This document shows, one piece after another, positions 13,338 through 45,926 of a stretch of DNA of 64,000 nt. The stretch spans positions 1,439,787 to 1,503,786 of the forward strand of contig JAJEKV010000013.1 of NCBI GenBank assembly GCA_021234155.1, written 5' to 3'. The notes beneath the pieces were generated by a model, which was not told the DNA's origin, made no database searches, and was given only the letters and a program-made list of their open reading frames with translations. Position 1 is the first letter of the stretch. Every line of letters begins with the position of its first letter. Made by a program: the position numbers and the translations under genes. Source of the stretch: Isoetes taiwanensis. Taxonomy: Eukaryota; Streptophyta; Lycopodiopsida; Isoetales; Isoetaceae.

Positions 13338-17970
<4,633 letters not shown>

Positions 17971-18280: not shown

Positions 18281-18920
18281 CACAAAGGTACAGTTCAATT
18301 TGTGCTATAATCACTTATATGCCCGGCTTGTTTGTTTTGGCCAAAGGCCATACTTTGTTAGTATAATGATACCGAGATTGCTCATATATATCGCATAAAT
18401 CTTCAAAGAAAATTGCATATTTCTGAAAACACACATTTACCTAGAATATGGATGCCTCAAATGAACATTTTGTGCTCATTGGGTATGAGAAGGACCCCAA
18501 GGGCTATTTGTGATCTTGGTGTTACACTTTGATTATCGCGGTTCCGTACCGATTCCTCGTTGGATTGCAGTTGGTCTACAGCTTCTTGTAGTATATTACA
18601 ACATTCTCGATCTCTCGCCATGCCACTGGTTCTTGCCGGGTTGACGAGTCTGCTATTACATAATTTTTATCCTTCATGCTTTCTTCCTGCTCAAAATAGA
18701 AGAATTGTTCAGTATGATATTATAATCTTTTTATTTTTCCATGCAGAAAATCCATATGTTCCATATTTTCGGAAAGTTTATTGTGCTTCTAGAAATACGT
18801 ATCAATCAAAACAAAATTTGACCTGCCAGAAACCTGTTCATGCAAACAGACTTTATTACTTAGAGCAGGATCTCCAAGACTCATACTAGTTGAACTAGCA
18901 TACTGAAGTCAAAGAATATA
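18281..18920 (-). other. Rest of family F internal domain
   Basis: No RT motif recognised. It begins (minus) with the junction TATATATTCTTTGACTTCAG and a stem-loop at 18883-18901 (arms ATGCTAGT/ACTAGTAT with one G-U pair) equivalent to 741-759 of element 1. The ORF at 18560-18889 on the plus strand is antisense and has no motif. Confidence 0.5.
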
Positions 18921-21900
18921 TACTTGCCAAAGCCTTGACCAAAGACTTTGAATTCCAAACCATGGGCTTTGGAACTTATCAGTTCTTAGCCAAAAGGGCC
19001 GAGACAAAACCTTTGAGATCCCGTGATTTATTCCGCGTTAATGCCATGCTTCTGTATTTATCCCTCACGACATTTTTACTGTTGTGCTTAAATCCTTAAA
19101 ATATATGCATATCACATAAATCAAAAAGAGTCTACATCTTAACCTCCTTCATGTTAAGGTCCATTTCCATAAATTATTTCAGTCTACTTCATTTTTCTTT
19201 GTTACAATGTACCATGTCCTTCCATAATATGCTTCTTGTTCTAATATTATTCGTTAATTATATTAATGCAACACATCCTTCCTTCATGTGCTTCCAGTTT
19301 TAATATTTTCCAGTAGTCGCTTCTAATTTAATCAAACCAATAATGGTAATAAGACAAGTTACGCCAAAGAGCTAAAATGATAAAACTTCCCGTGCGGCCA
19401 CAATGTTTTGCTCAAAGCGAGATCGCCACTTGAGGCCTTAGCCTATAGCACAATTAAAATCCAATACCAATATGTATTTTTCCTGCTTTTGACCACCGTT
19501 TTTTACTACGTATCAACAGTGGTATGCAACCAATAAAATAATGCTGCAGTTATGATATTTCATTCCCCTGATGCAATCAGCAAAAATGCATAGATAAGGG
19601 TACTGTATGAACATGATAAACTCTCCACTATAGTTTGAACAGAAATTAAAGCTTAACAGTAGTCTCGTGCCTCAAGATGTCATGTTTATGTGCTCAAAAT
19701 AGAGACATTAGGAGCACGATTTCAGTAAAAAATAGAGAACATGAAGTGGTTACCTTTGCCTTGTAAAGCATAAGATGCAAAACATAACCGTAAAATCAGG
19801 AATGTTTGTATAGTCTCCAAAGATACTACTAGCTTGTACTGCCATGTAACATACACGCCCAAACATCCAAAATACATAGAAATTGGAGATGCAAGACCGG
19901 TTACCAGAACCAAACGCACCAACATTAGCAAAGAAATGGTAATGAGGCAAGGGTTAACAGTAAGCAAAGTGGTCTTGGCATGGCTCATCGCCTTCACCAA
20001 TAATAATTCATTTGTTTACGATTATTCTCGCTCCAATTACTTATTTGCTCTCTATATTCCCAAGAAGAAATACGATCAGAGTCCACTCGCAGGGGATGTC
20101 GATCCCTCCACCAAAGAAGTCCACCATTGTTTAATTATTTAGGAAAAGACATATAATCTCAGCAAATTCACAGCACCAATTATAGGCTAAAATGTTAGGC
20201 CTAGGATATGTCCGATCTTGCAGTCCTTAGCCTGCTAGATACTTAACAATATCAAAATGCTGCCATAATCGCATTAACAGAATAAAGTGCGTTAGAGATC
20301 TATATTCTACATGCATTCATTATTTCAGTTATAATCTCCACCTTTCCACAAAACAACTTGTCTCATGTGTTAGGCAAAATCGAGTGTCATCTGGGTAAAG
20401 GACTTTGGCCCCAGCCATAAATATTTAAGGCAATAGAATTACCTTGGATATTAAGATCATCTGTGCAGATTGCCCTAAAAAACTTTAGAATATTCTCAGA
20501 ACGTGTCTTTTAACTCTATAAGGTATATAAGAGTGTTGCATGTCAGCCAGAACCACAAGCAGAAGCTAGTTCCATGCTATATGCTAACAAAACAACTTAG
20601 TTATCCATAACTTAGAACATACGAAGCCCAAGCAGCTCTGTCTATGCCTTTCAAAGTAGTCTATGCCTTTCAAAGTAGTGTGGAATTTCGTCTAGCCCTT
20701 TAAAAGTAGATTGTTCAATGCAAAAAGCAATGTAATATGGAAACTATCGCTAAGAAAACCCGGTTGAGTTGAAGCTCCTCCGCTTTCTCAAAATCGTCAC
20801 CCAAATGGAACAAGGTCCACAACTTTTTTCAGAAGCAAAGCTAAAGACTATTCGCGTGCCATCCTCATTTGCCTCTTACTTACAGTTTTCGGAGACGAAT
20901 TTGTGCCTTATTTTTCCTTCCATCTTGGCAGCTTGAGCATTGCTGTATTGTATTTTTTCCACTAGCTGGATCTTGTTGGGCGCTCTCTCCATTCGTGAGA
21001 TAGTAGCCAATCTCTATGATGGGCTTAGAAGCAAGAATAGCAAAGGCGCAGTGCATTTTTGCAGATGACACTATGCATCAAATGGAGTTCAGATTTAACA
21101 GAGCAGCCAAAATTGGCAAACCCTAGCCGCTGCTGTAAATCTAAGTGCATGCCAGCTATGCTACAATCAGATGTTCTAAATTAGCTGCTACATTTGGTTC
21201 CCCAGCCAAGGTTTACCGGAGTTCCATGCTGCAAAATGATGGGCTCAAAATTTCCCCTGCTTTTAAACACCAGCATGCCGAAATGAGTTAGGTGTTGCCA
21301 TCATGAGCCGGATCACCAGCATGCCGAAATGAACTGGGTGTTGCCATCATGAGCCGGATTGGTGCAGATCCGATTACCTGTTGCTTTGTGCCCTAAAAAA
21401 AACCAGAGCAGACCATAATCGTAGACTTTTTTGACAAAGCCGGATTTCCAAGTTTTCAATGGTTGGAGACAAAAACCCAGCCGTATACAAGGTTAAAAAT
21501 TACTAACTTGGACACAGCTTCTCTTTAGTGCTATGCCTATATTTAATCCTTAGATGCGCCATTTTTGCATAGGGAGCTTACTTTTCCCCTAGATCCTTAC
21601 CTAAACATCACAAATACTTAAGAGAATTTTATGGGTACAAGGATATATGCCACATGTTAGAGTACAATCTACAAGGTCAAAGTTTCTACCAGGCCATATA
21701 TTGGCCAAAAGATTACTAGAACAATTCATAAGACATATATCTATGCACTAGGCAGATCCTTTGTTAATTTGATCCTTACACGTTTTACTCAAAGGCTTGC
21801 TTACCAGAATAATGCCAAGCACTATTTTTTGCAATTTACCTTTGGTCCTAGGCTCCATATAGCTACAATGTGAAAGCCTGTTGATCGCTACACTTGCATA

Positions 21901-23149
21901 TGCATGAGAATCAACATGTTAGTGTACACTTATTTCTTGACCCAAATGGTCTAGAGCATAGACATGGTCCTAAGCCTAGGGAGTCAGAGTCACAAATATG
22001 CAAATTGTTGTGTTATGACCACCCACATAATAGTTTATCTGGTATAATCATCCATGCACTTACCAAATGTTCATGATGCCATGTTTCTTCTATGTGCCAC
22101 CTGTGGAAAGACCAGCTAGACTGCTGTATCATGCACATGGTGCGAATTCAAGTAACAAAATGCATTATCCTGTCAAACCAATTTCACATAAGGGGAACCC
22201 ATATGATAAGCATGCGTAGCTTTAGCCCCATTCATGTATTGAAACAAGCTTATCAATAACGATAGACCACATGAATTAATACGATAGACCACATGAATTC
22301 TTTTTGTGGACCATACAAATTGTGCATCTAAAATATCCAAACACAAGAGACATATCTTGCACTCGCAAAACTTTTGTTAATTTTTACCAAGATATCTTAC
22401 CCTGTGTTTGCTCACCGTAATAATGCCAATGTATTATTTTTTTGCAATTTACCTTGTGCCCTAGGCTTCATATTGTCACCATGTTGCGGTGCCATTGATT
22501 GCCACATGTGCAAAATGTAATTGGGTCAAATCGTTATGGTTATGAGCATGGTACTCTTATGGTAAGTAATTACACCTTGACTCCATGCCCATGTATATGT
22601 GTAGTGAGCAAAGAGGATAGGATAACCCCCTCTCATTAGTATAGTTGAGCACATAAATATGTCCCGTGATCATTTTCTTCATAAACACTCTATTTTACCT
22701 CAATATCTTAAAGTTTTTGCTATTTTTGCTCGTTCAATGCCTTTGCCAAGATAACTTACCCACTAATGTTACCATTAACGTCCATGTTTCCTGCACACTA
22801 GCATATCAGTTTTTCACACTTACGAAGGGATAAATCACTTTTGGCTGCTGCAGTGCTTTGCTGAGACTAGTCCCAAAGATACTACAATTATAGGCTATAA
22901 GGCCAACTCCTAAGGCAGAACACAATTTTAGCACCATATGTGGCATGAATTGTTTTCATACATACTTAATGATAGCACCTTGTCATTTGGTACTGGAGCT
23001 TGTCATGTCCTGCAGAACCCTGTTACTTAAATTATTAGTTAACTCAATTATCTTCGGTCAAGCCATCAGTGCAGACAAACTGAGGCTATCGAAGGAAAGG
23101 TTTTTAACTTAACTTCTACCTTTTTACTGGGCAAAACCAGCTGTTAATT

Positions 23150-23151
<2 letters not shown>
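18921..23151 (-). repeat. Family F long repeat, copy 2 (4.2 kb)
   Basis: Second copy of 13525-17735. It continues on the left into the internal domain and is bounded on the right by (TA)n. It has more apparent indels at CNG sites than copy 1 (for example 19355-19400 and 20800-20850). Confidence 0.9.
20760..20992 (-). pseudogene. Small acidic protein homologue, second copy
   Basis: Duplicate of 15349-15576 in the second long repeat. Same start and same in-frame TAA, plus additional indels around 20830-20850 where copy 1 has clean GCAGCAGCA codons. Those indels look like basecalling damage at CNG motifs. Confidence 0.5.

Positions 23152-23201
<50 letters not shown>
23152..23201. repeat. (TA)n microsatellite, 50 bp
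   Basis: TA repeat between family F long repeat copy 2 and the next internal-domain fragment. Confidence 0.99.
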
Positions 23202-23203
<2 letters not shown>

Positions 23204-23610
23204 ATAAAAGCTAAATCCTACCACCTACCGGAAGGCAGAGTAGAACCCTAGAATCTATAAGGACAAGAGGATCCCTATATTCTAGGGATCCCCCTGCCAA
23301 CTGTACTAAGAAGTTTAAGCTGAAGGAACATAAGGAAGTACCTGTATTTCTTAAGTTCTAGACGCAAGATTGAGAGGTTGAACTTAAGTCCTGGAAAAAC
23401 TCCCTTTGTGAGAGTTCTGTTGACAGTATGCCAAATGTCATCTCTTTTAAAGCCCTTGCTGCAGAACAATTGTACCAGACTGTTCAAGTCCTCTGCTGCT
23501 CTAGCTGGATCGTTGTGTACATAAAGGTAGGGTAGAATTTGTGACACGATCACATTTCTTGCCATCTGATAGGGTCTGCAGCCATTAGCATAGCATAATA
23601 TGTTGGACAC
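23202..23610 (-). pseudogene. RT C-terminal fragment with 3' tail, closest to element 1
   Basis: A 111-codon minus frame (23275-23610) reads ANGCRPYQMARNVIVSQILP and GFKRDDIWHTVNRTLTKG, closely matching element 1 residues just after motif C/D. Downstream on the minus strand are the stem GGATCCCTA-gaata-TAGGGATCC and CCGGTAGGTGGTAGG, then (TA)n. The upstream RT is missing: homology stops near 23600. It is a 5'-truncated relic of an element 1-like copy, not of the more diverged F type. Confidence 0.8.
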
Positions 23611-24367
23611 ATAATGTGGACTTATAATCCATGGACTGGTTTAATCCATGGCATAGGGCAGATAACATTAGGTTTAGGGAGTTTTTTTTGGCTGGAGCAT
23701 TATCCACCCTGGAACATGGTTAATTTGAAGGGGCATTAATTGCCTTCATCCTTGCATGTCCAAGTGAGCATCTAATAGTGCAACAAAAAAGGTTGCATAC
23801 ACTTGCCCTAATTTGGGTATATCCTAACCCCTATGGTATGAATTATGGATTGAAATGATAAGGTGTGAAGGATAAATATTGATGAGCATTTTCTAACCCC
23901 TAGCAGTTAAATTAAGGATGGATTAAATTAAGATTATAATTACAGGCCAATGGTTGGTGGGAATACGAATATGAAGTTGTAGCATAGGTCAGGTATTGGG
24001 GGATGATAGGGGCAAATATCCCAAGGTATAAAATGACTATGGGTATTATGGCGTTTATATGGGCACTTGGTAACTTATGCTCGAAATATGTTACACTTAA
24101 TTAACTAATATTGTTCAATAGTACTTACACCAACAGTTTTGTTGGCTAACTCTAATTTGAAAGGTTAAACTATTATATGGTTACATGATCTCTAAGGGCT
24201 CCCTCTTTAGGGTCCAATAAATTCAGTAGTCTTATTTAGTTAGGTTAAGGCTATTTGAATGTCTAGTCAAGTAGAGGCTTGGTTAGGCTGTATCTTTAAA
24301 CCGTATCCTGGGGCCTGTGTCAGTCTGGATTAAACCTTCAAGTTCTACATGAACCGAGTCAACCATT

Positions 24368-25519: not shown

Positions 25520-25539
25520 GATATATATATATATATATA
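25520..25539. repeat. Short (TA)n
   Basis: TA tract joining repeat G1 to LTR copy A. Confidence 0.95.
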
Positions 25540-25920
25540 CTCTATCTTTTCACTAGGATCTAATCTAGCAAAGACTTACTACTACTAACTTGGTCACTCG
25601 ACCGAAGCTAGAGAGAGTCTGTCCTGGCACTACCCAGGCTCTAGTCCACAAGAGTCCCACACGAAAGTAAAATACGCTCTAAATACAACCAGATATTTCA
25701 ATATTTTTGTTTTATCAATATTTCTTTAATATAGAAAGTACATACTAGACTTTGCAAGTGAAAAGTGTACAATAACTTCCCTTTATAGTCATAGCAGTAT
25801 TTATGTCTTGGTTGATCAAGATCACTGTCAATGTACGACTTGTGATGAAATTCCAACTTCTTTCATGTAAACGACAACCTAGGAAGCAAATTGGAGACAA
25901 TTGGAGGAGAGAACCCGTAC

Positions 25921-26413
25921 CTGCAGCCAATCATGCAAACGTTAGCAGTAATCCGGTAACGATGCAAGGGCCAAAAGGTACATTGGGTCTCTCAGTTTAT
26001 CACTGATCACCAATTGTATCCTTTTGCCCTGTGTAAACATTAACAAGAAAGATAGATGGAATCAAAGCTTGAGATTATTCATAGCTTAAGTTTTGAGATA
26101 GTATAATCAGTTATAATCATAAAGCAAATCCTGCTAAAGGCATGTTCCTGAATTAAGCTCGAAGCTTAACAACCACTTTAAAAATGGTTTAGCATGCTAT
26201 TATCCAGCCTATGTATTTATAAGATTAACTCCAAGGCATTAAAATTATGCCAATACTTCTTATAGTAGTTAATCCAAAAAGCCAAAGATAGCATAATTAG
26301 TTAAAAACATATGCACAGATCATTGTTTCGTATAACAAGAATATAGAACACATCTAGTATTAATATGTGATCTCATCCTCTAATGAGCAAATTAATGCAA
26401 ATAAATTCCAAAC
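25921..26413 (-). other. Intron 2 in LTR copy A
   Basis: Absent from copies B and C at the junction AAATCAG|GTACGGG. Minus strand starts GTTTGG and ends GGCTGCAG. The same intron in copy D is 33993-34486. Confidence 0.85.
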
Positions 26414-26582
26414 CTGATTTGCAGCTTCTCAAATATCTGCTTCTTGTTAAACATTGTCATCATTAGCCATTTATAAGGCCATAGCGTGTTTGCTTTTAGG
26501 GAGAAGAACTGCTCCATCAAATTTGTGTGCAATCCAAGAAGCCATAATACGCCAAATTTGTGTCTTGTTATGACTTCCAGAT

Positions 26583-26930
26583 CTGTGCCTTGCCAAAGCA
26601 ACCACTATTTCATGACAAGAAAAACAATAATAATAATAATAAGAGCAAAGAAATGTTTCTTGATGCTTTGCTACTACTATCAACGGTTAAGAGGATAGAT
26701 CATATCCTAAATGAATGTCATGACCATGAATGCATAAGATTATGGCATGAAAATCATCGGTATTCAAATAAACTATATCTGTGTCTTGCCATGACTGTCT
26801 GACCTGTGTCTTGCCAGAACAACTACTATTTCATGACAAAAAGAACAATAATAATAACAATAAGATGAGCAAACAAATGTTTCTTGATGCTTTGCCACTG
26901 CAATCAAATAGTTCAGAGAATAGACCATAC
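26583..26930 (-). other. Intron 1 in LTR copy A
   Basis: Absent from copies B and C at the precise junction CACTGAG|ATCTGG. Minus strand starts GTATGG and ends GCACAG. The same intron in copy D is 34656-35003. Confidence 0.85.
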
Positions 26931-28108
26931 CTCAGTGATGTATCCAAATAGCAGATCTACCATGCCTAATATCGGCCATGGCAAAGAATCAGAGCCAGTT
27001 TTTGGCTACAAAAAGCAAATTCAAAATGCATCCAAAAGGCAAATTCGAAATGCATTTGAGCTTCCAGATAATGCAACTCTTCTTTGGATTTCGAAATGCA
27101 TATATGCTTCTTCGGGATAATACCGATTTTTACCGCAAACAGGGAATATCGGGATCGCCAAGTGGAGCTTTAGAGTAACCATAGCATATCATGATCTGTA
27201 GAAAAGGCTAAGCTACCACAAGTCGGCCGTTTGAGCTAGAACCTGGCCGTCCACAAGCCCTAAATAATAATATTGAAAACCGTCATATTTTTGCCTTAGA
27301 TATTTCTATGGGCACATTTTTATGATAATAGACCATGCCCCAATATTAAATCAAGGTCACGACCTGTTTCTTTCCTTAGAAAGCCATGTTTCCGATCTCC
27401 TTCAACATTTTTGCAAATGCGGCTACATGCACCGTCCATACAACCTAACAATAGGTGTAGATGCAATAATAAACACCATAAATGGCATCAAGTTAAAGTT
27501 ATGGGAAAGTGAGCTTTTCACTTGTTCCCATTAAATGCTATAAGGCATGTCATAAGCCAATAAATATGAAAAATAATTAAGAGTGTCATACCTTATTGAT
27601 GTAGTGCATGCCACGTTTTCATAAGCATCATTATGTGATTCCAACCTTTTATTGTACCATTTTGCACCTTTGAATAAATCAAGGCCACAAATATACTTGA
27701 CCACAAATATATTTGGACCACTTTCCTTTACTCCAATAAAGTATGAAACCATACTATTGTAACCTTGGCCAAATTGAACCTAGGGCCAAATAGGATCTTA
27801 GACATATTATGCAACCAAATTGCACTCAAAGTTTTAGTCTCTCTCTCATATTTTGTAAGAATATGAAAAAAGCCTATGCTTAGGCAGTGGCAACGGGTAT
27901 AAGGAGCTTCCCACCCAGGTCAAGTGGAGCTGGGGGAGCTTTCCACTATTCTAGGCTCATTGGGATATCTGAGAGCTATGCAAAGAGCTCCAGATAATAC
28001 ATAGCTCTAGTGTTATGAGCATATTTTGTGGGAGTTCAAGACTTTCAAATCATCTTGAGCTCTGCAAGCTGTATCTAGCTCTTGTGTTTCAGCCAGCCAC
28101 AGCCTATT

Positions 28109-28137
28109 ATATATATTTATATTTATATATATATATA
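28109..28137. repeat. Short A/T tract with TATATTTATAT
   Basis: TA-rich boundary between LTR A and the first internal domain. Near-identical tracts at 30520-30549 and 32931-32954. Confidence 0.9.
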
Positions 28138-28786
28138 TAGCACCTACCTCCTACCGCAGGAAGTAGAGTCCTGAATGCAAATTTAGCATGTGTAATGCTA
28201 GGTAACATAGGGAACCTAGCATTTATGCTAGGACCCTACATTACCTGTAAGCAAATAGAATTTGAAAGATAAAGTATATAGCTGATATTCATACCTTAGT
28301 GGTCTTCACAGAGTTTCAAGAAGCCCAATATTTTTATTTTCTTGAACCATAGAATTTTGTCATCATTCTGTGGCCCCAACTGAGTCATCTACAAAAAGTG
28401 CAAGTTAACGAGTAGCAAACAATTAATGTCAAAAATAAAAGTAGAGAAGTAATCATGAGTAGGTTCTCGGGTCATCTCTTTCATACACTTGTACAAGAGG
28501 ACTAGTTTCCTAAGCCCCAAAGTACACATGCAATCATGAGAAAAAAGTTCAATAAAATAGTTCCAGAGATATACATTAATAAATTAATGCAGAATGGTGT
28601 CACAAGAGTATTATTGTAAAGGATATCTCATTTCATGTCCCTGTACAAGAGGACTAGTTTCCTAAATCCCAAAATACAGAAGCAATCATGAGATGTGTAA
28701 TGTGAACAGTCTAATCATAGTCTATTCATGTGGACTCAAGAGGATAGAGTCTCATGTCCTAGAACATGAAAACAGAAGTTTCAGCA
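28138..28786 (-). other. Internal domain between LTR A and LTR B, non-coding, structured ends
   Basis: Minus strand starts TATATATGCTGAAAC, then the stem-loop TCATGT/ACATGA (28752-28769), and ends with a tail in which ATGCTAGGT (RC of 28214-28222) can pair either with CCTAGCAT (RC of 28225-28232) or ACCTAGCAT (RC of 28195-28203), followed by CTACTTCCTGCGGTAGGAGG and (TA)n. No ORF of note. Copies: 30550-31198 and 32955-33604. Confidence 0.7.
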
Positions 28787-30519
28787 TATATACTCTATCT
28801 TTTCACTAGGATCTAATCTAGCAAAGACTTACTACTACTAACTTGGTCACTCGACCGAAGCTAGAGAGAGTCTGTCCTGGCACTACCCAGGCTCTAGTCC
28901 ACAAGAGTCCCACACGAAAGTAAAATACGCTCTAAATACAACCAGATATTTCAATATTTTTGTTTTATCAATATTTCTTTAATATAGAAAGTACATACTA
29001 GACTTTGCAAGTGAAAAGTGTACAATAACTTCCCTTTATAGTCATAGCAGTATTTATGTCTTGGTTGATCAAGATCACTGTCAATGTACGACTTGTGATG
29101 AAATTCCAACTTCTTTCATGTAAACGACAACCTAGGAAGCAAATTGGAGACAATTGGAGGAGAGAACCCGTACCTGATTTGCAGCTTCTCAAATATCTGC
29201 TTCTTGTTAAACATTGTCATCATTAGCCATTTATAAGGCCATAGCGTGTTTGCTTTTAGGGAGAAGAACTGCTCCATCAAATTTGTGTGCAATCCAAGAA
29301 GCCATAATACGCCAAATTTGTGTCTTGTTATGACTTCCAGATCTCAGTGATGTATCCAAATAGCAGATCTACCATGCCTAATATCGGCCATGGCAAAGAA
29401 TCAGAGCCAGTTTTTGGCTACAAAAAGCAAATTCAAAATGCATCCAAAAGGCAAATTCGAAATGCATTTGAGCTTCCAGATAATGCAACTCTTTTGGATT
29501 TCGAAATGCATATATGCTTCTTCCGGATAATACAGATTTTCGGCTGCAACAGGGGAATATATCAGATCGCCAAGTGGAGCTTTAGAGTAACCATAGCATA
29601 TCATGATCTGTAGAAAAGGCTAAGCTACCACAAGTCGGCCGTTTGAGCGCTAGAACTGGCCGTCCACAAGCCCTAAATAATAATATTGAAAACCGTCATA
29701 TTTTTGCCTTAGATATTTCTATGGGCACATTTTTATGATAATAGACCATGCCCCAATATTAAATCAAGGTCACGACCTGTTTCTTTCCTTAGAAAGCCAT
29801 GTTTCCGATCTCCTTCAACATTTTTGCAAATGCGGCTACATGCACCGTCCATACAACCTAACAATAGGTGTAGATGCAATAATAAACACCATAAATGGCA
29901 TCAAGTTAAAGTTATGGGAAAGTGAGCTTTTCACTTGTTCCCATTAAATGCTATAAGGCATGTCATAAGCCAATAAATATGAAAAATAATTAAGAGTGTC
30001 ATACCTTATTGATGTAGTGCATGCCACGTTTTCATAAGCATCATTATGTGATTCCAACCTTTATTGTACCATTTTGCACCTTGGAATAAATCAAGGCCAC
30101 AAATATACTTGACCACAAATATATTTGGACCACTTTCCTTTACTCCAATAAAGTATGAAACCATACTATTGTAACCTTGGCCAAATTGAACCTAGGGCCA
30201 AATAGGATCTTAGACATATTATGCAACCAAATTGCACTCAAAGTTTTAGTCTCTCTCTCATATTTTGTAAGAATATGAAAAAAGCCTATGCTTAGGCAGT
30301 GGCAACGGGTATAAGGAGCTTCCCACCGGTCAAGTGGAGCTGGGGAGCTTTCCACTATTCTAGGCTCAGTGGGATATCTGAGAGCTATGCAAAGAGCTCC
30401 GGATAATACATAGCTCTAGTGTTATGAGCATATTTTGTGGGAGTTCAAGACTTTCAAATCATCTTGAGCTCGCAAAGTCGTATCTAGCTCTTGTGTTTTG
30501 AGCCGACCCAATGACCTAT
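28787..30519 (-). repeat. LTR copy B (spliced form)
   Basis: Matches copy A over its length but lacks both introns exactly at GT-AG borders (junctions at 29173/29174 and 29342/29343). No other large deletion. This is the signature of reverse transcription of a spliced minus-strand transcript. Confidence 0.9.
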
Positions 30520-30549
30520 TATATATATTTATATTTATATATATATATA

Positions 30550-31198
30550 TAGCACCTACCTCTACCAGAGAAGTAGAGTCCCTGAATGCAAATTTAGCAT
30601 GTGTAATGCTAGGTAACATAGGGAACCTAGCATTTATGCTAGGACCCTACATTACCTGTAAGCAAATAGAATTTGAAAGATAAAGTATATAGCTGATATT
30701 CATACCTTAGTGGTCTTCACAGAGTTTCAAGAAGCCCAATATTTTTATTTTCTTGAACCATAGAATTTTGTCATCATTCTGTGGCCCCAACTGAGTCATC
30801 TACAAAAAGTGCAAGTTAACGAGTAGCAAACAATTAATGTCAAAAATAAAAGTAGAGAAGTAATCATGAGTAGGTTCTCGGGTCATCTCTTTCATACACT
30901 TGTACAAGAGGACTAGTTTCCTAAGCCCCAAAGTACACATGCAATCATGAGAAAAAAGTTCAATAAAATAGTTCCAGAGATATACATTAATAAATTAATG
31001 CAGAATGGTGTCACAAGAGTATTATTGTAAAGGATATCTCATTTCATGTCCCTGTACAAGAGGACTAGTTTCCTAAATCCCAAAATACAGAAGCAATCAT
31101 GAGATGTGTAATGTGAACAGTCTAATCATAGTCTATTCATGTGGACTCAAGAGGATAGAGTCTCATGTCCTAGAACATGAAAACAGAAGTTTCAGCAT
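30550..31198 (-). other. Internal domain between LTR B and LTR C
   Basis: Copy of 28138-28786 with the same stem-loops and tail. Differences at the left edge are again CAG/CTG-type. Confidence 0.7.
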
Positions 31199-32930
31199 AT
31201 ATACTCTATCTTTTCACTAGGATCTAATCTAGCAAAGACTTACTACTACTAACTTGGTCACTCGAATAGAAGCTAGAGAGAGTCTGTCCTGGCACTACCC
31301 AGGCTCTAGTCCACAAGAGTCCCACACGAAAGTAAAATACGCTCTAAATACAACCAGATATTTCAATATTTTTGTTTTATCAATATTTCTTTAATATAGA
31401 AAGTACATACTAGACTTTGCAAGTGAAAAGTGTACAATAACTTCCCTTTATAGTCATAGCAGTATTTATGTCTTGGTTGATCAAGATCACTGTCAATGTA
31501 CGACTTGTGATGAAATTCCAACTTCTTTCATGTAAACGACAACCTAGGAAGCAAATTGGAGACAATTGGAGGAGAGAACCCGTACCTGATTTGCAGCTTC
31601 TCAAATATCTGCTTCTTGTTAAACATTGTCATCATTAGCCATTTATAAGGCCATAGCGTGTTTGCTTTTAGGGAGAAGAACTGCTCCATCAAATTTGTGT
31701 GCAATCCAAGAAGCCATAATACGCCAAATTTGTGTCTTGTTATGACTTCCAGATCTCAGTGATGTATCCAAATAGCAGATCTACCATGCCTAATATCGGC
31801 CATGGCAAAGAATCAGAGCCAGTTTTTGGCTACAAAAAGCAAATTCAAAATGCATCCAAAAGGCAAATTCGAAATGCATTTGAGCTTCGGATAATGCAAC
31901 TCTTTTGGATTTGAAATGCATATATGCTTCTTCCGGATAATACTGATTTTTACCGCAACAGGGGAATATATCAGATCGCCAAGTGGAGCTTTAGAGTAAC
32001 CATAGCATATCATGATCTGTAGAAAAGGCTAAGCTACCACAAGTCGGCCGTTTGAGCGCTAGAACTGGCCGTCCACAAGCCCTAAATAATAATATTGAAA
32101 ACCGTCATATTTTTGCCTTAGATATTTCTATGGGCACATTTTTATGATAATAGACCATGCCCCAATATTAAATCAAGGTCACGACCTGTTTTTTTTCCTT
32201 AGAAAGCCATGTTTCCGATCTCCTTCAACATTTTTGCAAATGCGGCTACATGCACCGTCCATACAACCTAACAATAGGTGTAGATGCAATAATAAACACC
32301 ATAAATGGCATCAAGTTAAAGTTATGGGAAAGTGAGCTTTTCACTTGTTCCCATTAAATGCTATAAGGCATGTCATAAGCCAATAAATATGAAAATAATT
32401 AAGAGTGTCATACCTTATTGATGTAGTGCATGCCACGTTTTCATAAGCATCATTATGTGATTCCAACCTTTATTGTACCATTTTGCACCTTGGAATAAAT
32501 CAAGGCCACAAATATACTTGACCACAAATATATTTGGACCACTTTCCTTTACTCCAATAAAGTATGAAACCATACTATTGTAACCTTGGCCAAATTGAAC
32601 CTAGGGCCAAATAGGATCTTAGACATATTATGCAACCAAATTGCACTCAAAGTTTTAGTCTCTCTCTCATATTTTGTAAGAATATGAAAAAAGCCTATGC
32701 TTAGGCAGTGGCAACGGGTATAAGGAGCTTCCCACCGGTCAAGTGGAGCTGGGGAGCTTTCCACTATTCTAGGCTCAGTGGGATATCTGAGAGCTATGCA
32801 AAGAGCTCCAGATAATACATAGCTCTAGTGTTATGAGCATATTTTGTGGGAGTTCAAGACTTTCAAATCATCTTGAGCTCTGCAAGCTGTATCTAGCTCT
32901 TGTGTTTCAGCCAGCCACAGCCTATTATAT
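31199..32930 (-). repeat. LTR copy C (spliced form)
   Basis: Near-identical to copy B and also lacking both introns, so B and C probably derive from one spliced template or from duplication of one integrated copy. Confidence 0.9.
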
Positions 32931-32954
32931 ATATTTATATTTATATATATATAT

Positions 32955-33604
32955 ATAGCACCTACCTCCTACCGCAGGAAGTAGAGTCCTGAATGCAAAT
33001 TTAGCATGTGTAATGCTAGGTAACATAGGGAACCTAGCATTTATGCTAGGACCCTACATTACCTGTAAGCAAATAGAATTTGAAAGATAAAGTATATAGC
33101 TGATATTCATACCTTAGTGGTCTTCACAGAGTTTCAAGAAGCCCAATATTTTTATTTTCTTGAACCATAGAATTTTGTCATCATTCTGTGGCCCCAACTG
33201 AGTCATCTACAAAAAGTGCAAGTTAACGAGTAGCAAACAATTAATGTCAAAAATAAAAGTAGAGAAGTAATCATGAGTAGGTTCTCGGGTCATCTCTTTC
33301 ATACACTTGTACAAGAGGACTAGTTTCCTAAGCCCCAAAGTACACATGCAATCATGAGAAAAAAAGTTCAATAAAATAGTTCCAGAGATATACATTAATA
33401 AATTAATGCAGAATGGTGTCACAAGAGTATTATTGTAAAGGATATCTCATTTCATGTCCCTGTACAAGAGGACTAGTTTCCTAAATCCCAAAATACAGAA
33501 GCAATCATGAGATGTGTAATGTGAACAGTCTAATCATAGTCTATTCATGTGGACTCAAGAGGATAGAGTCTCATGTCCTAGAACATGAAAACAGAAGTTT
33601 CAGC
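32955..33604 (-). other. Internal domain between LTR C and LTR D
   Basis: Third copy of the 650-bp internal domain with both structured ends. Confidence 0.7.
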
Positions 33605-36178
33605 ATATATACTCTATCTTTTCACTAGGATCTAATCTAGCAAAGACTTACTACTACTAACTTGGTCACTCGACCGAAGCTAGAGAGAGTCTGTCCTGGC
33701 ACTACCCAGGCTCTAGTCCACAAGAGTCCCACACGAAAGTAAAATACGCTCTAAATACAACCAGATATTTCAATATTTTTGTTTTATCAATATTTCTTTA
33801 ATATAGAAAGTACATACTAGACTTTGCAAGTGAAAAGTGTACAATAACTTCCCTTTATAGTCATAGCAGTATTTATGTCTTGGTTGATCAAGATCACTGT
33901 CAATGTACGACTTGTGATGAAATTCCAACTTCTTTCATGTAAACGACAACCTAGGAAGCAAATTGGAGACAATTGGAGGAGAGAACCCGTACCTGCAGCC
34001 AATCATGCAAACGTTAGCAGTAATCCCGGTAACGATGCAAGGGCCAAAAGGTACATTGGGTCTCTCAGTTTATCACTGATCACCAATTGTATCCTTTTGC
34101 CCTGTGTAAACATTAACAAGAAAGATAGATGGAATCAAAGCTTGAGATTATTCATAGCTTAAGTTTTGAGATAGTATAATCAGTTATAATCATAAAGCAA
34201 ATCCTGCTAAAGGCATGTTCCTGAATTAAGCTCGAAGCTTAACAACCACTTTAAAAATGGTTTAGCATGCTATTATCCAGCCTATGTATTTATAAGATTA
34301 ACTCCAAGGCATTAAAATTATGCCAATACTTCTTATAGTAGTTAATCCAAAAAGCCAAAGATAGCATAATTAGTTAAAAACATATGCACAGATCATTGTT
34401 TCGTATAACAAGAATATAGAACACATCTAGTATTAATATGTGATCTCATCCTCTAATGAGCAAATTAATGCAAATAAATTCCAAACCTGATTTGCAGCTT
34501 CTCAAATATCTGCTTCTTGTTAAACATTGTCATCATTAGCCATTTATAAGGCCATAGCGTGTTTGCTTTTAGGGAGAAGAACTGCTCCATCAAATTTGTG
34601 TGCAATCCAAGAAGCCATAATACGCCAAATTTGTGTCTTGTTATGACTTCCAGATCTGTGCCTTGCCAAAGCAACCACTATTTCATGACAAGAAAAACAA
34701 TAATAATAATAATAAGAGCAAAGAAATGTTTCTTGATGCTTTGCTACTACTATCAACGGTTAAGAGGATAGATCATATCCTAAATGAATGTCATGACCAT
34801 GAATGCATAAGATTATGGCATGAAAATCATCGGTATTCAAATAAACTATATCTGTGTCTTGCCATGACTGTCTGACCTGTGTCTTGCCAGAACAACTACT
34901 ATTTCATGACAAAAAGAACAATAATAATAACAATAAGATGAGCAAACAAATGTTTCTTGATGCTTTGCCACTGCAATCAAATAGTTCAGAGAATAGACCA
35001 TACCTCAGTGATGTATCCAAATAGCAGATCTACCATGCCTAATATCGGCCATGGCAAAGAATCAGAGCCAGTTTTTGGCTACAAAAAGCAAATTCAAAAT
35101 GCATCCAAAAGGCAAATTCGAAATGCATTTGAGCTTCCAGATAATGCAACTCTTTTGGATTTCGAAATGCATATATGCTTCTTCCGGATAATACAGATTT
35201 TCGGCTGCAACAGGGGAATATATCAGATCGCCAAGTGGAGCTTTAGAGTAACCATAGCATATCATGATCTGTAGAAAAGGCTAAGCTACCACAAGTCGGC
35301 CGTTTGAGCGCTAGAACTGGCCGTCCACAAGCCCTAAATAATAATATTGAAAACCGTCATATTTTTGCCTTAGATATTTCTATGGGCACATTTTTATGAT
35401 AATAGACCATGCCCCAATATTAAATCAAGGTCACGACCTGTTTCTTTCCTTAGAAAGCCATGTTTCCGATCTCCTTCAACATTTTTGCAAATGCGGCTAC
35501 ATGCACCGTCCATACAACCTAACAATAGGTGTAGATGCAATAATAAACACCATAAATGGCATCAAGTTAAAGTTATGGGAAAGTGAGCTTTTCACTTGTT
35601 CCCATTAAATGCTATAAGGCATGTCATAAGCCAATAAATATGAAAAATAATTAAGAGTGTCATACCTTATTGATGTAGTGCATGCCACGTTTTCATAAGC
35701 ATCATTATGTGATTCCAACCTTTATTGTACCATTTTGCACCTTGGAATAAATCAAGGCCACAAATATACTTGACCACAAATATATTTGGACCACTTTCCT
35801 TTACTCCAATAAAGTATGAAACCATACTATTGTAACCTTGGCCAAATTGAACCTAGGGCCAAATAGGATCTTAGACATATTATGCAACCAAATTGCACTC
35901 AAAGTTTTAGTCTCTCTCTCATATTTTGTAAGAATATGAAAAAAGCCTATGCTTAGGCAGTGGCAACGGGTATAAGGAGCTTCCCACCGGTCAAGTGGAG
36001 CTGGGGAGCTTTCCACTATTCTAGGCTCAGTGGGATATCTGAGAGCTATGCAAAGAGCTCCAGATAATACATAGCTCTAGTGTTATGAGCATATTTTGTG
36101 GGAGTTCAAGACTTTCAAATCATCTTGAGCTCTGCAAGCTGTATCTAGCTCTTGTGTTTCAGCCAGCCACAGCCTATT
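33605..36178 (-). repeat. LTR copy D (unspliced form)
   Basis: Matches copy A including both introns (33993-34486 and 34656-35003). It is the upstream-most LTR of the array on the minus strand and ends in a (TA)n/(ATAGAT) tract. Confidence 0.9.
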
Positions 36179-36236
36179 ATATATATATATATAGATATAG
36201 ATATATATATATAGATATAGATCTATTATATATATC

Positions 36237-36270
<34 letters not shown>
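36177..36270. repeat. Compound (TA)n with ATAGAT units
   Basis: TA repeat interrupted by AGATATAGAT and CTATTATATA units at the right edge of the A-D array. Followed by TTTACTATGAG, which resembles part of the short motif at 13338-13364. Confidence 0.95.
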
Positions 36271-36271: not shown

Positions 36272-36994
36272 CTATGAGTATGAATGTGAGTCGACAAAAA
36301 GAATATTCACGATGGGCAAGCAAACATTTGCCCTTGCACTGGGTGGAATTTGGCGAGTTATAGTTGATCTAGTTGTGTGCGCCATATTTTGAATATATAA
36401 CTTGGATGAGAGGCACATGTATATAGTTGGAATGGCATAGATTGTTCAAATGTATCTGTATTATTGCTATACTTACTTTTTAAAGGTCTCAGTTTATAGG
36501 AATCAATCTAGTTAGATCAAAGGTCTCATTTCATGAGAACCAACGCAAAGAGGATGATGTCATTTGAAGAAAGGGTATCTATCTCTCTTATAAACTATCA
36601 ATGGAAATGAGGGAAATAATAGCTAAAGTTTCCGTGGAGCCATGCTTCACATCAAGGTAGTCATGATAGTCCTCTTTGATCATAAATTTAATCACTTAAA
36701 CTATGTAGGGTCCAAGTCTTTTCTCAACAAAAACAAGCGTGTCAGTATAGGATATTTATATTCATTATTGGCAAGTTCTATGTTGAACGTTCGTGATGTT
36801 AAATCTCCATCTTAAAGCATTGATCTCAACATCTTTTTTTTTTTTTTTTTTTGTAAATTAGTGTATTTCATTCTGGAGTGGATTTCTTTTGGAAAACATA
36901 TACGTGCCGGCAGTATGGCTTCACATTGCATATGTACTATGTAATATTGGTTTGGTGACTATATAAGCTTGCAACCAGAGTATGTTAACTTTGT
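36271..36994. other. No gene recognised; poly-T at 36836-36852
   Basis: Host-like A/T-rich DNA upstream of the Rab fragment. The T17 run is the only notable feature. Confidence 0.4.
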
Positions 36995-37122
36995 AGTTTT
37001 GTATAGATGGGATACTGCTGGTCGAGAACATTTTAGATCACATTCAAGATCTTATTATAGGGGTGCAAAAGGATCGCCTTTGATTTTGGAGTTACAACAA
37101 CATTCAATAATGTAAAGCAGAT
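36995..37122 (+). pseudogene. Rab GTPase fragment
   Basis: From 37008: WDTAGREHFRSHSRSYYRGAKG, the switch II region (WDTAGQE) and following helix of a Rab small GTPase. After a frameshift near 37075 it continues as VTTTFNNVKQ, the Rab VTDxxSFxNVxxW segment. The nearest type is Rab1/Rab8. P-loop, NKxD and C-terminal prenylation parts are absent. It is a broken single-exon piece in host-like DNA. Confidence 0.8.
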
Positions 37123-38205
37123 ACTACTATCCTCCCCATTCACCACTTTCTAGATTTGATATTATAAGAGAGGTAAAGATATCATATTTTTGGCTTCAAT
37201 AAAACATGGATAAGAATATATTTTGCATTTTTGCAAAGTTTATAGGCTGTGTCATTTATTGGGCATGTGCAAACTGATTTTTAATAGATAAATGAATATA
37301 GAGAGCAAGAACCTCAGTATTAAGCTATTTAGGATCCAAAACTACATCATAAAAACCTGAAAGCTATCTGGAGGTTGTGAACAATGTGAGTTTCTGCAAA
37401 ATCCTCCACGTTTTTGCAAAATGATGTATGCATCTGCAAATCCCACCAAGCTTCTACAGGGTTCGCCAGGTATTTCGAAATGGAGCTTAGCTGTAAATAT
37501 TATATGCAAAGTCCATCAAGCCTCTACACAGTGCTCCAGACATTTTGGAATGGAGCTCTGCTATAAATGCATCTGCCAAATCGACCAGATCTTCTTCTTG
37601 GATCTTTAGACGGTGAAGAGATTCCATTCAAGCTTGCTTGGCTCTAAACAAAGTTTAAAATGAAACGCACTAATTTGCTCAAAACGCACTTCAAAAGGAA
37701 TCTTTGAAAGATTCCCTAAAATCCCCCCAAAAAGGTCCCTTTTCATGGTATATTTGTGACAAGTGTGACAATTTGAAAATTTTAGGCATCATTTTTGAGG
37801 GGGGTGTGAACTTAGCTTTCATTCAAAATTGTTTGACATCCCTTTTTGGCCCCCCTAGTTTGGTTTGAGAAATAGTAATATTTTCAAAAACTAAACAAAA
37901 TAGACATTGAAAAAAACAGCAAGCACACTAAAGTGCCAAAAAGGTATTTTATTCAAAGTTTTCAAAATCAGTACAAAACTATGAACAAAACTGTAAAAAA
38001 TGCAACACATTTTGACATTGCCTCATTGAAGCAAACATTTTCACATGAAAGTATGCCTCATTGAACAAACTTACACTTTGAAGCGCAAGTTGGAGTCGAA
38101 GACGCTCGCTCTTCGTCTTATATACTTGCTCTTATTTGCTCATCCGTCTTGCTATAGACTTATGTATACCGCGAGGACAATGCGTGGACATAACGTCTTC
38201 AAAAT
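37123..38205. other. No gene recognised
   Basis: A/T-rich host-like DNA. Loosely repeated GCATCTGCAAATC/GGAGCTT phrases around 37420-37580 suggest an old degenerate repeat. Confidence 0.4.
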
Positions 38206-38491: not shown

Positions 38492-38529
38492 GCAGATAAC
38501 CTTCAGACAATCAATTTATACACATATAT

Positions 38530-40037
38530 GTGTATATATAAAAGAAATTTAACACGCCCCTACTTGCATTGATTGTTCGTTTTAGCACGTTCTTACGGTT
38601 GCAAGGCCTGTCGTGCTCTAGGTAACCAACGATTCTACTGAGATTCTCTTGTCATTCCTCTATATTCTTCAAGATTCTATGTACTATATTTAGCATCCAT
38701 GAAGATTCCCCTAGATTCTCTTAGAATTTTCTATTTTGATTGAGGTGCTTACCCATGAGCATTTAGAACATTCAAAATAATCTATTTTGGATCTCAGGCA
38801 ACATTTCCAAAACACTTTCTATTTTTAGACTCAAAGGCTTGCCCCGAAAGCATCCGGAACATTTTTTTTTCAAGATTTATATTGTACACCTTTATTATGA
38901 AACATTTTAGAACATTCTATTGTGACTCTTTGCAAAACCTTAAAAAAAACTCTAAGATTTCATCAAGATTTTCTTAGATTCCCTTAGATATTATGAAGAT
39001 TCCCTTAGATTCAACTAGATTTTAAGAGATTCCGTTAGACTTGTAAATATTTTCCTACATTCTCTTACAATTTATGAGATTTCCTTATATTCCCTTTAAT
39101 TCTCCTGGATTCTCTTACATTCTAGAAATTTCTAGAACATTCTAGAACTTTCTGGAGCATTCTGAAACTTTCAAAACATCCTAGAACTTTCTGGAAGTAT
39201 TTTCCTATTCCCTTACATTTCTGAAGATTCCCCTACATTCTAGAACTTATTAGAACAATTTGGGACTTTCTGGAAGGATTCTCTTAAATTCCCCCTAGAT
39301 TCTCTTATATTCCAAAACATTATATTCTGGAACTTTCTAGAACATTCTAGAAGATTTTAGAACTTTCTAGAGCCTCCAGAACATTCTAGAACTTTCTTGA
39401 ACTATCTAGAATATTATATTCTATTTTATCTTAATTAGAATATTACCCTTAAGTATATTTGAAACATAAATTATTTATGGAATTAATGCTTGGTCTAGTG
39501 GTTAGAGTGGGGGGTTTGGGAGGTTCAGGTCCAGGGTTCGAATCCCCCCAATAACATAAAAAATTTTAGAAGCCTTTCCTTAAGGGACGAGCATTCAACA
39601 TGAGCCTTAGGATCTTAGACTCGATCAACGATCAAGATCTCACCATATAAAAACAATATGAGCCGTAGGATCTATTACATATAATTCCCAAAGCCATGTG
39701 GACCGTAAGATATGTGCCAAGCAACGTGAGCCGTAGGATCTCGGATCGACGATCAGGATCAAGAGCAACCTGGGCCGTAGGATCGATTACATAGAGTCTA
39801 TATAGAAACTCCCAAGCCATCTGGGCCGTAGGATGTCTCCCCAAGCAAGCGTGAGTCGAGGATCTCGAACCCACGATGGGGATCAAATCAACACGGACCG
39901 TAGGATCGTCTATATAGAATATATAGAATCTCCCAAGCCATCTCGCCCGTGAGGATACGCCCCAAAGCCACGTGGGGACAGTAGGATCTCGAAGCAGACA
40001 GTCCGGATAAGCGCGACAAACATAAGAACATATATAT
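38530..40037 (+). repeat. Repeat G2 (full-length, about 1.5 kb)
   Basis: Same plan as G1: AAGAAATTTAACACGCCCCTAC start, degenerate TCTAGAACATTCT and AGATTCCCCTAGATTCT units, SINE-like head (39491-39545), GCCGTAGGATC block, end GCGACAAACATAAGAACATATATA into (TA)n. Nearly identical to G3 in reverse. Confidence 0.85.
39491..39545 (+). promoter_or_regulatory. tRNA-derived Pol III promoter (SINE head) in G2
   Basis: A box TGGTCTAGTGG (39491-39501) and B box GGTTCGAATCC (39535-39545), both perfect matches to the tRNA internal promoter consensus. The rest does not fold as a full tRNA with a 7-bp acceptor stem, so it is SINE-like rather than a tRNA gene. Confidence 0.85.
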
Positions 40038-42775
<2,738 letters not shown>

Positions 42776-42804
42776 TTATATATATTTATATTTATATATA
42801 TATA

Positions 42805-43269
42805 TAGCATCCTCCCTCCTACCGCAGGAAGTAGGGTCCTAAAAGAAAATTCAGTTTATTGCTAGGTAGCGCAGGGTACCTAGCATTCTGCTAGGACCCT
42901 ACGTTACCTGTAAATCGTTACAATGTTAAAAGATAAAAGATAAATCACATAGCCAAAATTCATACCTTTATGGTCCTGCTCAGGTTTCAAGAAGCCAAAT
43001 TTTTTAATGTTCATAAACCATAGAAATCCGTCATAATTCTGTGGCTAGTACTTGTCATTTTTGAAATGTCCCAAATGCATCAGTAAATAGCAAACAATAA
43101 GTAAGTAGCAAAAAGGTAATAGCCAATGTAACGGTAGAGCAGTGCGAATGGAAAACATAATGTTCAATAAATCACGAGAGGTGTACTGTATTCAATTAAT
43201 TCAGGTGGACTCAAAAGGATAGAGTTTCATATCCTTGAATATGATAACAGATGTTTCAGCATATATACT
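42805..43269 (-). other. Internal domain of the E pair, non-coding, structured ends
   Basis: Minus strand opens TATATATGCTGAAACATC with stem TCATAT/ATATGA (43227-43244), a compensated version of the A-D stem. The tail has CCTAGCA/TGCTAGG (42889-42895 with 42879-42885) competing with TGCTAGGTA/TACCTAGCA (42860-42868 with 42877-42885), then GCGGTAGGAGGGAGG and (TA)n. Confidence 0.7.
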
Positions 43270-45868
43270 TTCCTTTGCCTAGGGTCTAATCTAGCCAAGT
43301 CCATACTCCTAACTTGGTCACTTAACCGAAGCTAGAGAAATTCTGTCCTGGCACTACCCAGGCCCTAAACCAAATGAGTCCAACAAGAATACTAAATAAG
43401 CTCAATATTTGTCTGAAGGTGTTCATTATTTTCACATAAACAAGTTTTTCCTTTCAACGTGCAGCATTATTGAAAGTATATCTTTATAAAGCAAAAAGGG
43501 TAGTAGAAATAAAAAATAGTTTTACATTCCATTCTTTACCAGAAAGTATGGTATTATACTTATCCAAGCCGATCATAATCCTAGTGTTCACATTTCCAGC
43601 TCATTTGCAAATATTCCATTCTTTTTTTCGTCAACAGCTTCCCTGAAAGCAAAGGAGAGACAATTGGAGGAGAGAACCCGTACCTGCAGCCAATCATGCA
43701 AACGTTAGCAGTAATCCCGGTAACGATGCAAGGGCCAAAAGGTACATTGGGTCTCTCAGTTTATCACTGATCACCAATTGTATCCTTTTGCCCTGAGAAA
43801 CCATTAATCGAGAAAGAGAAATGGAATTATAACATAAATGATTTTTCCAAATCCATAAGCTGCAATCGGATTTGCTACTTATACAACTAACATGTTTAGT
43901 GCATTCCATGTATAAACATAGTGCATCTAGTCTATAATGATTTCTAGTTTCAGCAATTGCAAATATTGTCTAAGTTTAAGCCTTAGACAATGTCTTGAAA
44001 AGAAGGCTTTCAAATAAGCTTTTTTCAGGCATACATAGTGTACATGATGCACAGGCAAAGTTATTCATTTACCAATGCAAGATTTTTGTAACCAAGACTG
44101 ACCAAAATATTGACTCAAACCTTTAGAGTAAGTCGCAATATTTTCGGCTGCAAATTGGCATTCTTGGACCGTTTTTTTTATCATTCTATCTCTATAACAT
44201 CCAGCCATGTTCTAAGTCACATGGTGAGTGCGTTTAAATCTTTGGTAGTTACCTTGAAACAAAGCTGAAAAATAAGGCAAAAACCAGTTATAGCAGAGGG
44301 CATTTTCTTAATGCTTGTTTGCAACCTGAAATCCTTACAACATGCATCAATTTTGAATGCACGAAAAATACAAATATGAACAAGCAAACCTAGTATTTCG
44401 GCATGCTTGCATCCAAGGCTATTGTATAATCCAGTTTAAAGGAATAAAATAAAGTATTCAAAGCTTATAAAGAACAGTTCGAAATACCTGTTTGTTCTAT
44501 CTTTCTATAACTGCACAAAAATCCGGCATTGTTGACAGATTGGCAGCCTTAAGCAAAGGATTAAATTGAAGTAAAACCAGACATCCGAAGCATCCCAGCA
44601 TATAGCTATTATGGCATAAATTACCACAGGTTTGTAAAGAAAGCCACGAATATCCAGGCCTACATCTTTGCTAGCACCAAAGCATTCTGATTGTTTGCTG
44701 CCAAATCCGGCAAACATGAAATGTATCCATTTCTTTTGGATTGCAATGACTTCCATCACTAGTTACGCGGTTGTGAGTTTGTTTTAGCATCATAAGAATA
44801 ACCGGGGTTTTTTACTCACCTAGTAGCATATGGACTCGAGCAAATCGGCCAGCGAGGGGTGGACATGGCATCGCCAATCACATTTTTCGGCCATGGCATA
44901 GATCCTGCCGAAATATTACGTGTCGGATCATTACGGCGGCCACTTTGGTGCCGGCCCTAATGCCACGTACTGAACTAGGGTTTGTAGCCCTTAGATCGAT
45001 TTGCAGAAATGCCTTTAAAAAAACAAATAATGTAAAACAGATAAATAAATAATGTTTGCCTTAGAGAACTTTAGCAAAACACATGTTTTCCATATTTGAA
45101 GGCCACGTTTCCAACCACAAAACAAAAGCTTTGTAATAATAGCACGGTTGTGCTTTTTTTTTGTTTACTTTAAATTGTAAAAAAGATAAAGAATTCTTTG
45201 CATGCATGCAAAGCTTTCTTTTAAAAGGCACCATGTGGCAAGCATGCCATGTCCCACAAATATCCCAATTGAAACATATATTCCACCATGTGATTTCCAC
45301 TTAATCCATGGGCCACCACGTAATTTGGCAAATATGAACTATATAAAAAAAACCGTTTGCAAGGTTTACACCCAAGATTTTATTTGCCATGTCATAGGGC
45401 CTAACATAACTAAATAAGAACATGTAACTTCCCATTTACATACCTTGGGTAGTTTTCATAGATTACTTCATTTGCCACATGCAATCTTAGGCAAAATATG
45501 CAATCTTAGGCTTAGAAATGTCAATTATTCCATAATGTAGAGATTTCATAACTTCTACGTAGCATAAGAATTGCTAATATTTGCCAGAAATATATTTCTT
45601 GTGCCCTTTACACAATGTTGCCATTTCAAGCATGTCTTTTTGACCAAGTGTATTTTTTTGCATTTCAAGATATTGCTCTATTGCATCCATTACAAAGAAA
45701 AAGTCACAGTGGTGCCATAGCAAATTAGGCCACCAATGCAATAAAGGAGACTACACAGCTCTTAGTATTTTGAGCCAGTGTTGTGAGAGTACTTGACATC
45801 TCCTACAGCGGTATGAGCTTCACAAGCGCTGTGTCTAGCTCTTGTGTTGCAACCGTCTCCAACCTGTT
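43270..45868 (-). repeat. LTR copy E2
   Basis: Second LTR of the E pair, bounded on the right by (TA)n that adjoins segment P1. Confidence 0.9.
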
Positions 45869-45879
45869 ATATATATTTA

Positions 45880-45926
<47 letters not shown>
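45869..45926. repeat. (TA)n microsatellite
   Basis: TA repeat between LTR E2 and duplicated segment P1. Confidence 0.98.

Follow-up and report, generated by a model that had tools for sequence, protein, structure and literature searches.

The 64-kb window analyzed here, a stretch of the genome of Isoetes taiwanensis, contains a tandem array of four long terminal repeats (LTRs) and three internal spacers (int) of 645–647 bp, which is probably a recent, non-autonomous Penelope-like element lying in a (TA)n tract. On the sense strand of the array, the minus strand of the window, the order is D-int-C-int-B-int-A, and alignment of the four repeats on this strand places the intron-bearing copies A and D on the outside and the intron-free copies B and C between them. 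The components are as follows, in window coordinates.

36178 to 36268, no strand: TA-rich tract at the 5′ end of D.
33605 to 36209, minus strand: LTR copy D, the 5′-most on the sense strand, intron-bearing, 2605 bp (from the alignment and coordinates).
34656 to 35003, minus strand: intron 1 of D, 348 bp, GTATGG..GCACAG (from coordinates).
33993 to 34486, minus strand: intron 2 of D, 494 bp, GTTTGG..CTGCAG (from coordinates).
32958 to 33604, minus strand: internal spacer D-C, 647 bp, starting with GCTGAAAC and ending with GGTAGGTGC.
31197 to 32957, minus strand: LTR copy C, without both introns, junctions at 31755/31754 and 31586/31585 (from the alignment and junction searches).
30552 to 31196, minus strand: internal spacer C-B, 645 bp.
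28786 to 30551, minus strand: LTR copy B, without both introns, junctions at 29343/29342 and 29174/29173 (from the alignment and junction searches).
28140 to 28785, minus strand: internal spacer B-A, 646 bp.
25533 to 28139, minus strand: LTR copy A, the 3′-most on the sense strand, intron-bearing, 2607 bp (from the alignment and coordinates).
26583 to 26930, minus strand: intron 1 of A, 348 bp, GTATGG..GCACAG (from coordinates).
25921 to 26413, minus strand: intron 2 of A, 493 bp, GTTTGG..CTGCAG (from coordinates).

The borders of intron 1 (348 bp) are CACTGAG/GTATGG...GCACAG/ATCTGG and those of intron 2 (493 bp in A, 494 bp in D) are AAATCAG/GTTTGG...CTGCAG/GTACGG; both introns have AG/GT donors and CAG acceptors and read GT-AG on the sense strand. 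The preliminary description of this DNA had reported two minus-strand GT-AG introns of these lengths in A and D, and its coordinates for A are right to the base; its further claim, that B and C lack both introns at exactly those borders, is borne out by the alignment and coordinates, with the exactness limited to a slide of 2 and 5 nt at the two junctions because of the letters repeated there. The sense strand of the family was taken from E1, the first of four related elements in the window, in which the LTR end (GTATATAT/GC) is followed by open reading frame 1 (ORF1) and the reverse transcriptase (RT) frames on the same strand; by these RT frames, both introns lie on the sense strand of the element. 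The introns have a slightly higher T content (0.385 and 0.372) than the exons (0.322) and a lower GC content (0.336 and 0.332 versus 0.377). Parts of intron 1 match twice in D (34656–35003), an apparent diverged internal duplication.

Searches of the assembly (1.66 Gb, 1,110 contigs) for the junctions used 30-mers and allowed 3 mismatches at most. Each of the two spliced junctions has two matches assembly-wide, in B and C, with 0 mismatches; within 3 mismatches no spliced donor was found outside B and C in this assembly, and the reversed control of the spliced 30-mers gave 0 matches in it. The unspliced exon 1/intron 1 30-mer gave nine matches, namely A, D, both repeats of C1045, one repeat of C1100, and C1078, C1084, C1109 and C1027 once each; the second C1100 repeat is not among them, though intron 1 is present there by alignment. 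Of the random deletions simulated in D (200,000, each 100–800 bp long), 0.41% are readable as sense-strand GT-AG, as are 351 of the 36,490 (0.96%) with a slide of at least 2 nt; taken as the product of single-event rates, two independent GT-AG-like deletions would arise by chance at about 1e-5 to 1e-4. Because the loss is an exact sense-strand GT-AG loss, the spliced junctions are confined to B and C, the chance expectation is low and the relatives bear the introns, we conclude that B and C very probably derive from spliced sense RNA, as had been proposed when spliced minus-strand RNA was said to have been reverse transcribed into these copies.

The nearest relatives, C1045 (L009) and C1100 (L010), belong to the same subfamily and have the LTR-int-LTR form, each LTR bearing both introns; intron 1 is shorter in C1045 than in the array. 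Compared with A and D, the introns carry 31–44 substitutions in about 837 positions at C1100 and 39 in 708 at C1045, and the remainder of the two relatives carries 54–104 in about 1,710 (54–106 when compared with B and C). As the divergence from these relatives is alike in the introns and in the rest, the introns have evidently been copied along in separate insertions. Between the two repeats of C1045 there are 0/708 substitutions in the introns and 11/1,705 elsewhere.

Twenty relative loci, chosen for matching exons 2–3 of B, bear on the origin of the introns. The end of intron 2 and exon 3 are common to 16 of the 20, 11 of which also contain int, and the stretch between the LTR head and the end of intron 2 varies by subfamily. 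The sequence that starts near LTR position 961 and runs to position 66–268 of intron 2, introns included, is also found at four of the 20 loci (L015–L018; C1078, C1027, C1084 and C1109), which have neither exon 3 nor int and in which the intron-bearing stretch sits in other repeats of varying extent. Because these four loci hold the same intron-bearing stretch without exon 3 or int, the introns appear to have arrived with captured sequence, a direction of capture that we infer from sequence comparison. The last ~131–163 bp of intron 2 of A, with the acceptor, are common to the family and its donor side is common to L015–L018; intron 2 would appear to be a hybrid, with its donor from the apparently captured sequence and its acceptor from the family core. 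This core stretch is 94.5% alike between D (33956–34135) and a repeat of E4 (43647–43827), the fourth related element, over 181 bp (120 columns identical), and the rest of the two repeats around it is mostly hardly alignable. In the second repeat of E4, the 181-bp core (43647–43827) follows an AG and precedes CAG/GT, and could itself be an exon.

The four related Penelope-like elements of the window lie on both strands, at 1–8481, about 13525–23640, 25533–36209 (the array) and 40198–45897; the features of the other three are as follows.

1008 to 5194, plus strand: open frames of E1, comprising ORF1 (1008–2696), an RT part (2978–4489) and an RT/thumb part (4754–5194), in the sense direction of the family.
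13525 to 23206, minus strand: E2, with two 4.3-kb LTRs; an RT remnant lies upstream at 23278–23640.
40198 to 45897, minus strand: E4, with two 2.6-kb LTRs and a 469-bp spacer.

In its anatomy the family is Penelope-like, with long intron-bearing direct repeats, tandem units, occasional tails and an RT in which no GIY-YIG domain was detected. The LTR-int-LTR form, seen at L009, L010, L019, L024, E2 and E4, agrees with the tandem or partially tandem pseudo-LTR (pLTR) arrangement of Penelope-like elements; the intron retention of such elements is seen in A, D and both repeats of L009 and of L010, all with both introns; and a probable counterpart of their optional 3′ tail occurs at three of 13 3′ ends (L009, L020 and L026). 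The RT frames of E1 (window 1–8481) are broken, and its frames gave no Pfam match of note. L014 has an open 688-aa frame that matches RVT_1 with E = 7.9e-5 and 22.9 bits, below the Pfam cut-off of 29.6, and the family RT frames, read by eye, carry GIPMG and YMDD or YIDD motifs (GIPMG and YMDD in L014). Unlike in E1, an ORF1-like frame lies ahead of the 688-aa RT frame directly after the LTR head (L014:6096–9499). A genome protein search for the family RT returned 85 matches from the 84 scored of 3,853 candidates. Near C1081:2887573–2897769, a three-spacer array lies beside an RT frame that is 98% like that of E1 and open over 746 aa, which makes C1081 a candidate autonomous relative. No GIY-YIG domain was found in four frames of the broken E1, the L014 RT frame and one L012 frame (a second L014 frame lay outside the scan), no integrase matched in the family frames scanned (E1, L014 and L012), and no hammerhead was among the five cmscan matches with E up to 1, obtained for the window only. 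A hammerhead or circular-RNA origin was rejected, as the window has no Rfam hammerhead match. We use the name Penelope-like because of this anatomy and of an RT of unplaced clade; the assignment in the preliminary description is supported as far as the anatomy (repeats, introns and tails) goes.

Frames with LRR, integrase and zf-RVT domains, the last being a mark of plant long interspersed nuclear elements (LINEs), are present in the window and the fetched loci, which agrees with a plant host. Positions 38517–40113 and 59725–61305 of the window are inverted copies (93%) with minisatellites that also occur at 61.7–63.0 kb.

The unit junctions of the array are seamless at all three spacers (TATATAT/GCTGAAAC and GGTGC/TATATA), with no poly(A) at any of these junctions. 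The LTR 3′ end is GTATATAT in 11 of the relatives' 13 3′ ends (L010 and L023 vary), a count that is not independent because it was by matching the end of exon 3 that these ends were located. Beyond the LTR, TA-rich DNA follows at eight of the 13 ends, other DNA at L011 and L023, and the start of int at L009 (over 188 bp), L020 and L026; these run-ons at three of 13 ends closely resemble the tails known from animal Penelope-like elements, to which they may be equivalent. At the relatives' 11 5′ ends, a clear TA run precedes L013, L019, L021 and L027, int precedes L024, and little or no TA precedes the rest; since most of these 5′ ends have little or no TA, a TA target is not general at the 5′ side of the relatives. 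Within the window, the seen ends of all four related elements adjoin TA tracts, the 5′ end of E1 lying outside it. No telomere-like repeats were seen by eye at the ends of the window elements or the relatives. The right flank of the array (36272–37430) has a 96% homologue at C919:15775027–15776177 that begins at the edge of the TA tract; C919 was rejected as an empty or allelic site, as its next 805 bases have no match in the window.

Variation among the four repeats was then set against that of other repeat pairs. The introns of A and D show 0 substitutions in 841 aligned positions, plus the 1-bp length difference in intron 2, versus 19 in 1,731 positions outside the introns, in five clusters. 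Outside the introns (from alignment column 60), 41 columns vary among the four copies, with 17 private to A, 10 to B and 9 to C, four shared by A and C, one three-way and none (0/41) common to B and C alone. Among the repeat pairs of the window together with those of L009, L010, L019, L024 and L037, mismatches are commoner at CHG triplets in 11 of 11 (the E5 pair being outside the family), by 1.9 to 37 times. The mismatch spectrum, all mismatches counted, contains many transversions and gaps, and the CHG excess suggests either errors in the consensus or the decay of methylated CHG sites. As mismatches are enriched at CHG sites, no genealogy of A–D was drawn from the variants; given this enrichment and the pattern of the 41 columns, they are silent on how B and C relate to A and D. 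CHG noise alone fails to explain the substitution-free introns of A and D, because CHG sites are equally dense there (66 in 842 bases versus 117 in 1,723 for exons).

A search for other mixed arrays compared LTR pairs within 16 sequences, L011, L012, L013, L020 and L027 being outside the test. Four of the 16 yielded no pair, and the 12 pairs obtained are about full length for L009, L010, L019, L024, L037, E2 and E4 and partial for L014, L022, L025 and L035, with L036 badly grouped. None of the five gaps of at least 40 bp in these pairs can be read as GT-AG, nor can the one at C996 (0/6 in total); the gaps at L037 (265 bp) and C996 (114 bp, or 111 bp in another alignment) both lie between direct repeats. 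Three-unit arrays were found at C996, C1079 (matches 3,264 and 3,266 bp apart) and C1081 (spacers 3,269 and 3,293 bp apart), and no intron-like differences between units are seen at C996, from the alignment, or at C1079 and C1081, from match spacing alone.

To account for the mixed array, we lean slightly toward a history in which an older D-int-A element was entered by spliced int-LTR complementary DNA (cDNA), at the TATATAT/GC junction or by homology. The original D-int-A form is proposed because the two nearest relatives have that form and the introns of A and D are without substitutions. An LTR-int-LTR insertion of the usual kind, with each LTR (the present D and A) bearing both introns, would have come first. 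A sense transcript was very probably spliced at both introns, and reverse transcription would have followed, with autonomous relatives as the probable source of the RT. The resulting cDNA, amounting to one or two int-LTR units, would then have inserted into the element, through priming at the TATATAT/GC junction at the LTR 3′ end, where family copies end, or through homologous repair, and a single spliced unit may have been duplicated later. The preliminary description had the spliced copies placed head-to-tail between genomic-form copies; the order, with the intron-bearing copies outside, stands, and placement of the spliced units between unspliced ones is the most likely course, the route of entry being something that we infer. 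As the nearest relatives keep their introns, the usual templates may be unspliced RNA, RNA copied before splicing, or antisense RNA.

Several observations weigh against this history or its parts. The array is the only mixed one found, in a sample rather than a full census, and is thus a single case, its order known from one assembly alone. The sequence does not discriminate between self-targeted insertion and later exchange. A recent age is not cleanly indicated by the 8–34 exonic substitutions in about 1,730 positions among A–D, which fall in few clusters; A and D differ in their exons and not in their introns although CHG sites are as dense in the latter; and one variant cluster is common to A and C versus B and D, through consensus noise or exchange. 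Finally, placement of the family by PDB sequence searches, including a profile search with the family RT, yielded no meaningful relative.

In the main rival history, unequal crossover or gene conversion took place between an unspliced element and an independent, wholly spliced one, or spread a spliced unit in the array, which would leave B and C with an RNA origin and a DNA placement; we consider it unlikely. In its favor, the units of the array join seamlessly and in register throughout, three-unit arrays exist elsewhere in the family, the L037 and C996 deletions lie between direct repeats, and A and C have their cluster of variants in common; however, with no other spliced copy within 3 mismatches, the donor must be lost, allelic or unassembled, and B and C have no variant to themselves.

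That one long, four-unit RNA was spliced in its inner units, left unspliced in its outer ones and inserted in a single event is improbable. Multi-copy mRNAs have been proposed for a Penelope-like element (PMC11167929), and the model matches the unspliced-spliced-spliced-unspliced order. Every unit, however, has complete donor-acceptor pairs, with no simple reason for the outer two to be spared, and the other three-unit arrays (C1079 and C1081 by spacing only, C996 by alignment) lack intron-like differences between units. A positional rule, by which terminal repeats of a multi-unit sense RNA template would escape splicing and internal repeats would be spliced, is improbable to the same degree; its cause would lie in the transcription start and end sites or in an RT that binds and shields the LTR/int junction.

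An assembly chimera, joining real spliced and unspliced units from different places or alleles, is very unlikely: near-identical 2.4-kb units are hard to assemble and the concentration of repeat mismatches at CHG sites is perhaps consensus noise, but no other place in the assembly has the spliced junctions, and all three spacers are joined cleanly to their neighbors. An origin without RNA, by two precise DNA deletions or by the loss of two inserted elements, is scarcely credible, for although the junctions slide by 2 and 5 nt, as with microhomology deletions, both losses are sense-strand GT-AG with AG/GT donors and CAG acceptors, at the low chance expectation given above, and none of the six other gaps of at least 40 bp between repeat copies has this form.

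Similar outcomes are known from other systems. Tandem arrays of Ty1 form by recombination of (spliced) cDNA with resident copies, a route that would likewise give spliced units inside a resident element and seamless junctions, although the array family belongs to another retroelement class. LINE-made processed pseudogenes show exact intron loss through RNA, as do B and C, which in contrast lack poly(A) and a separate insertion site and lie in register inside the array.

The family resembles pLTR Penelope-like elements, such as Penelope of Drosophila virilis, Poseidon of Anolis and bdelloid Penelope, in its intron-bearing direct repeats and tandem or partially tandem units, its intron retention on transposition, the tails of some copies and AT-rich targets (PMC3846280, PMC11167929 and PMC11722881). 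It differs from them in that non-autonomous forms combine long repeats (2.6–4.3 kb) with short spacers, (TA)n lies at the element ends seen in the window, the frames scanned gave no GIY-YIG and the window no hammerhead match, and spliced units adjoin unspliced ones in one array. With the endonuclease-deficient plant Penelope-like elements of Selaginella and conifers it shares a plant host and, as far as the scanned frames show, an RT without endonuclease (PMC9033089, PMC12477314); those of Selaginella are described as telomere-associated (PMC12477314), whereas, by this comparison of descriptions, the array family adjoins internal TA-rich DNA. The preliminary description had called intron retention and mixed copies known oddities of these elements. 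Retention of introns (PMC3846280) and introns inside the repeats (PMC11722881) are indeed already published, but a partial literature search, including the available text of PMC5537684 and PMC12910113, found no description of an array in which spliced and unspliced repeats occur together, an absence that is weakly supported.

How Penelope-like elements keep introns despite moving through RNA is an open question (PMC3846280), for which an antisense template has been discussed and unspliced sense RNA not excluded in the same source. The RT of one such element, from an animal, initiates within its template in vitro and cuts DNA spanning the junction between its own ORF and repeat (PMC11167929). 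If the positional rule were true, introns would be retained because elements usually have just two repeats, rather than because the template is antisense. Being unique in the assembly, the spliced junctions make the case testable with reads of this plant. The apparently hybrid intron 2 suggests that capture of sequence can create a working intron, and, judging from B and C, the spliced sense RNA of a Penelope-like element can become DNA and end in register in an array.

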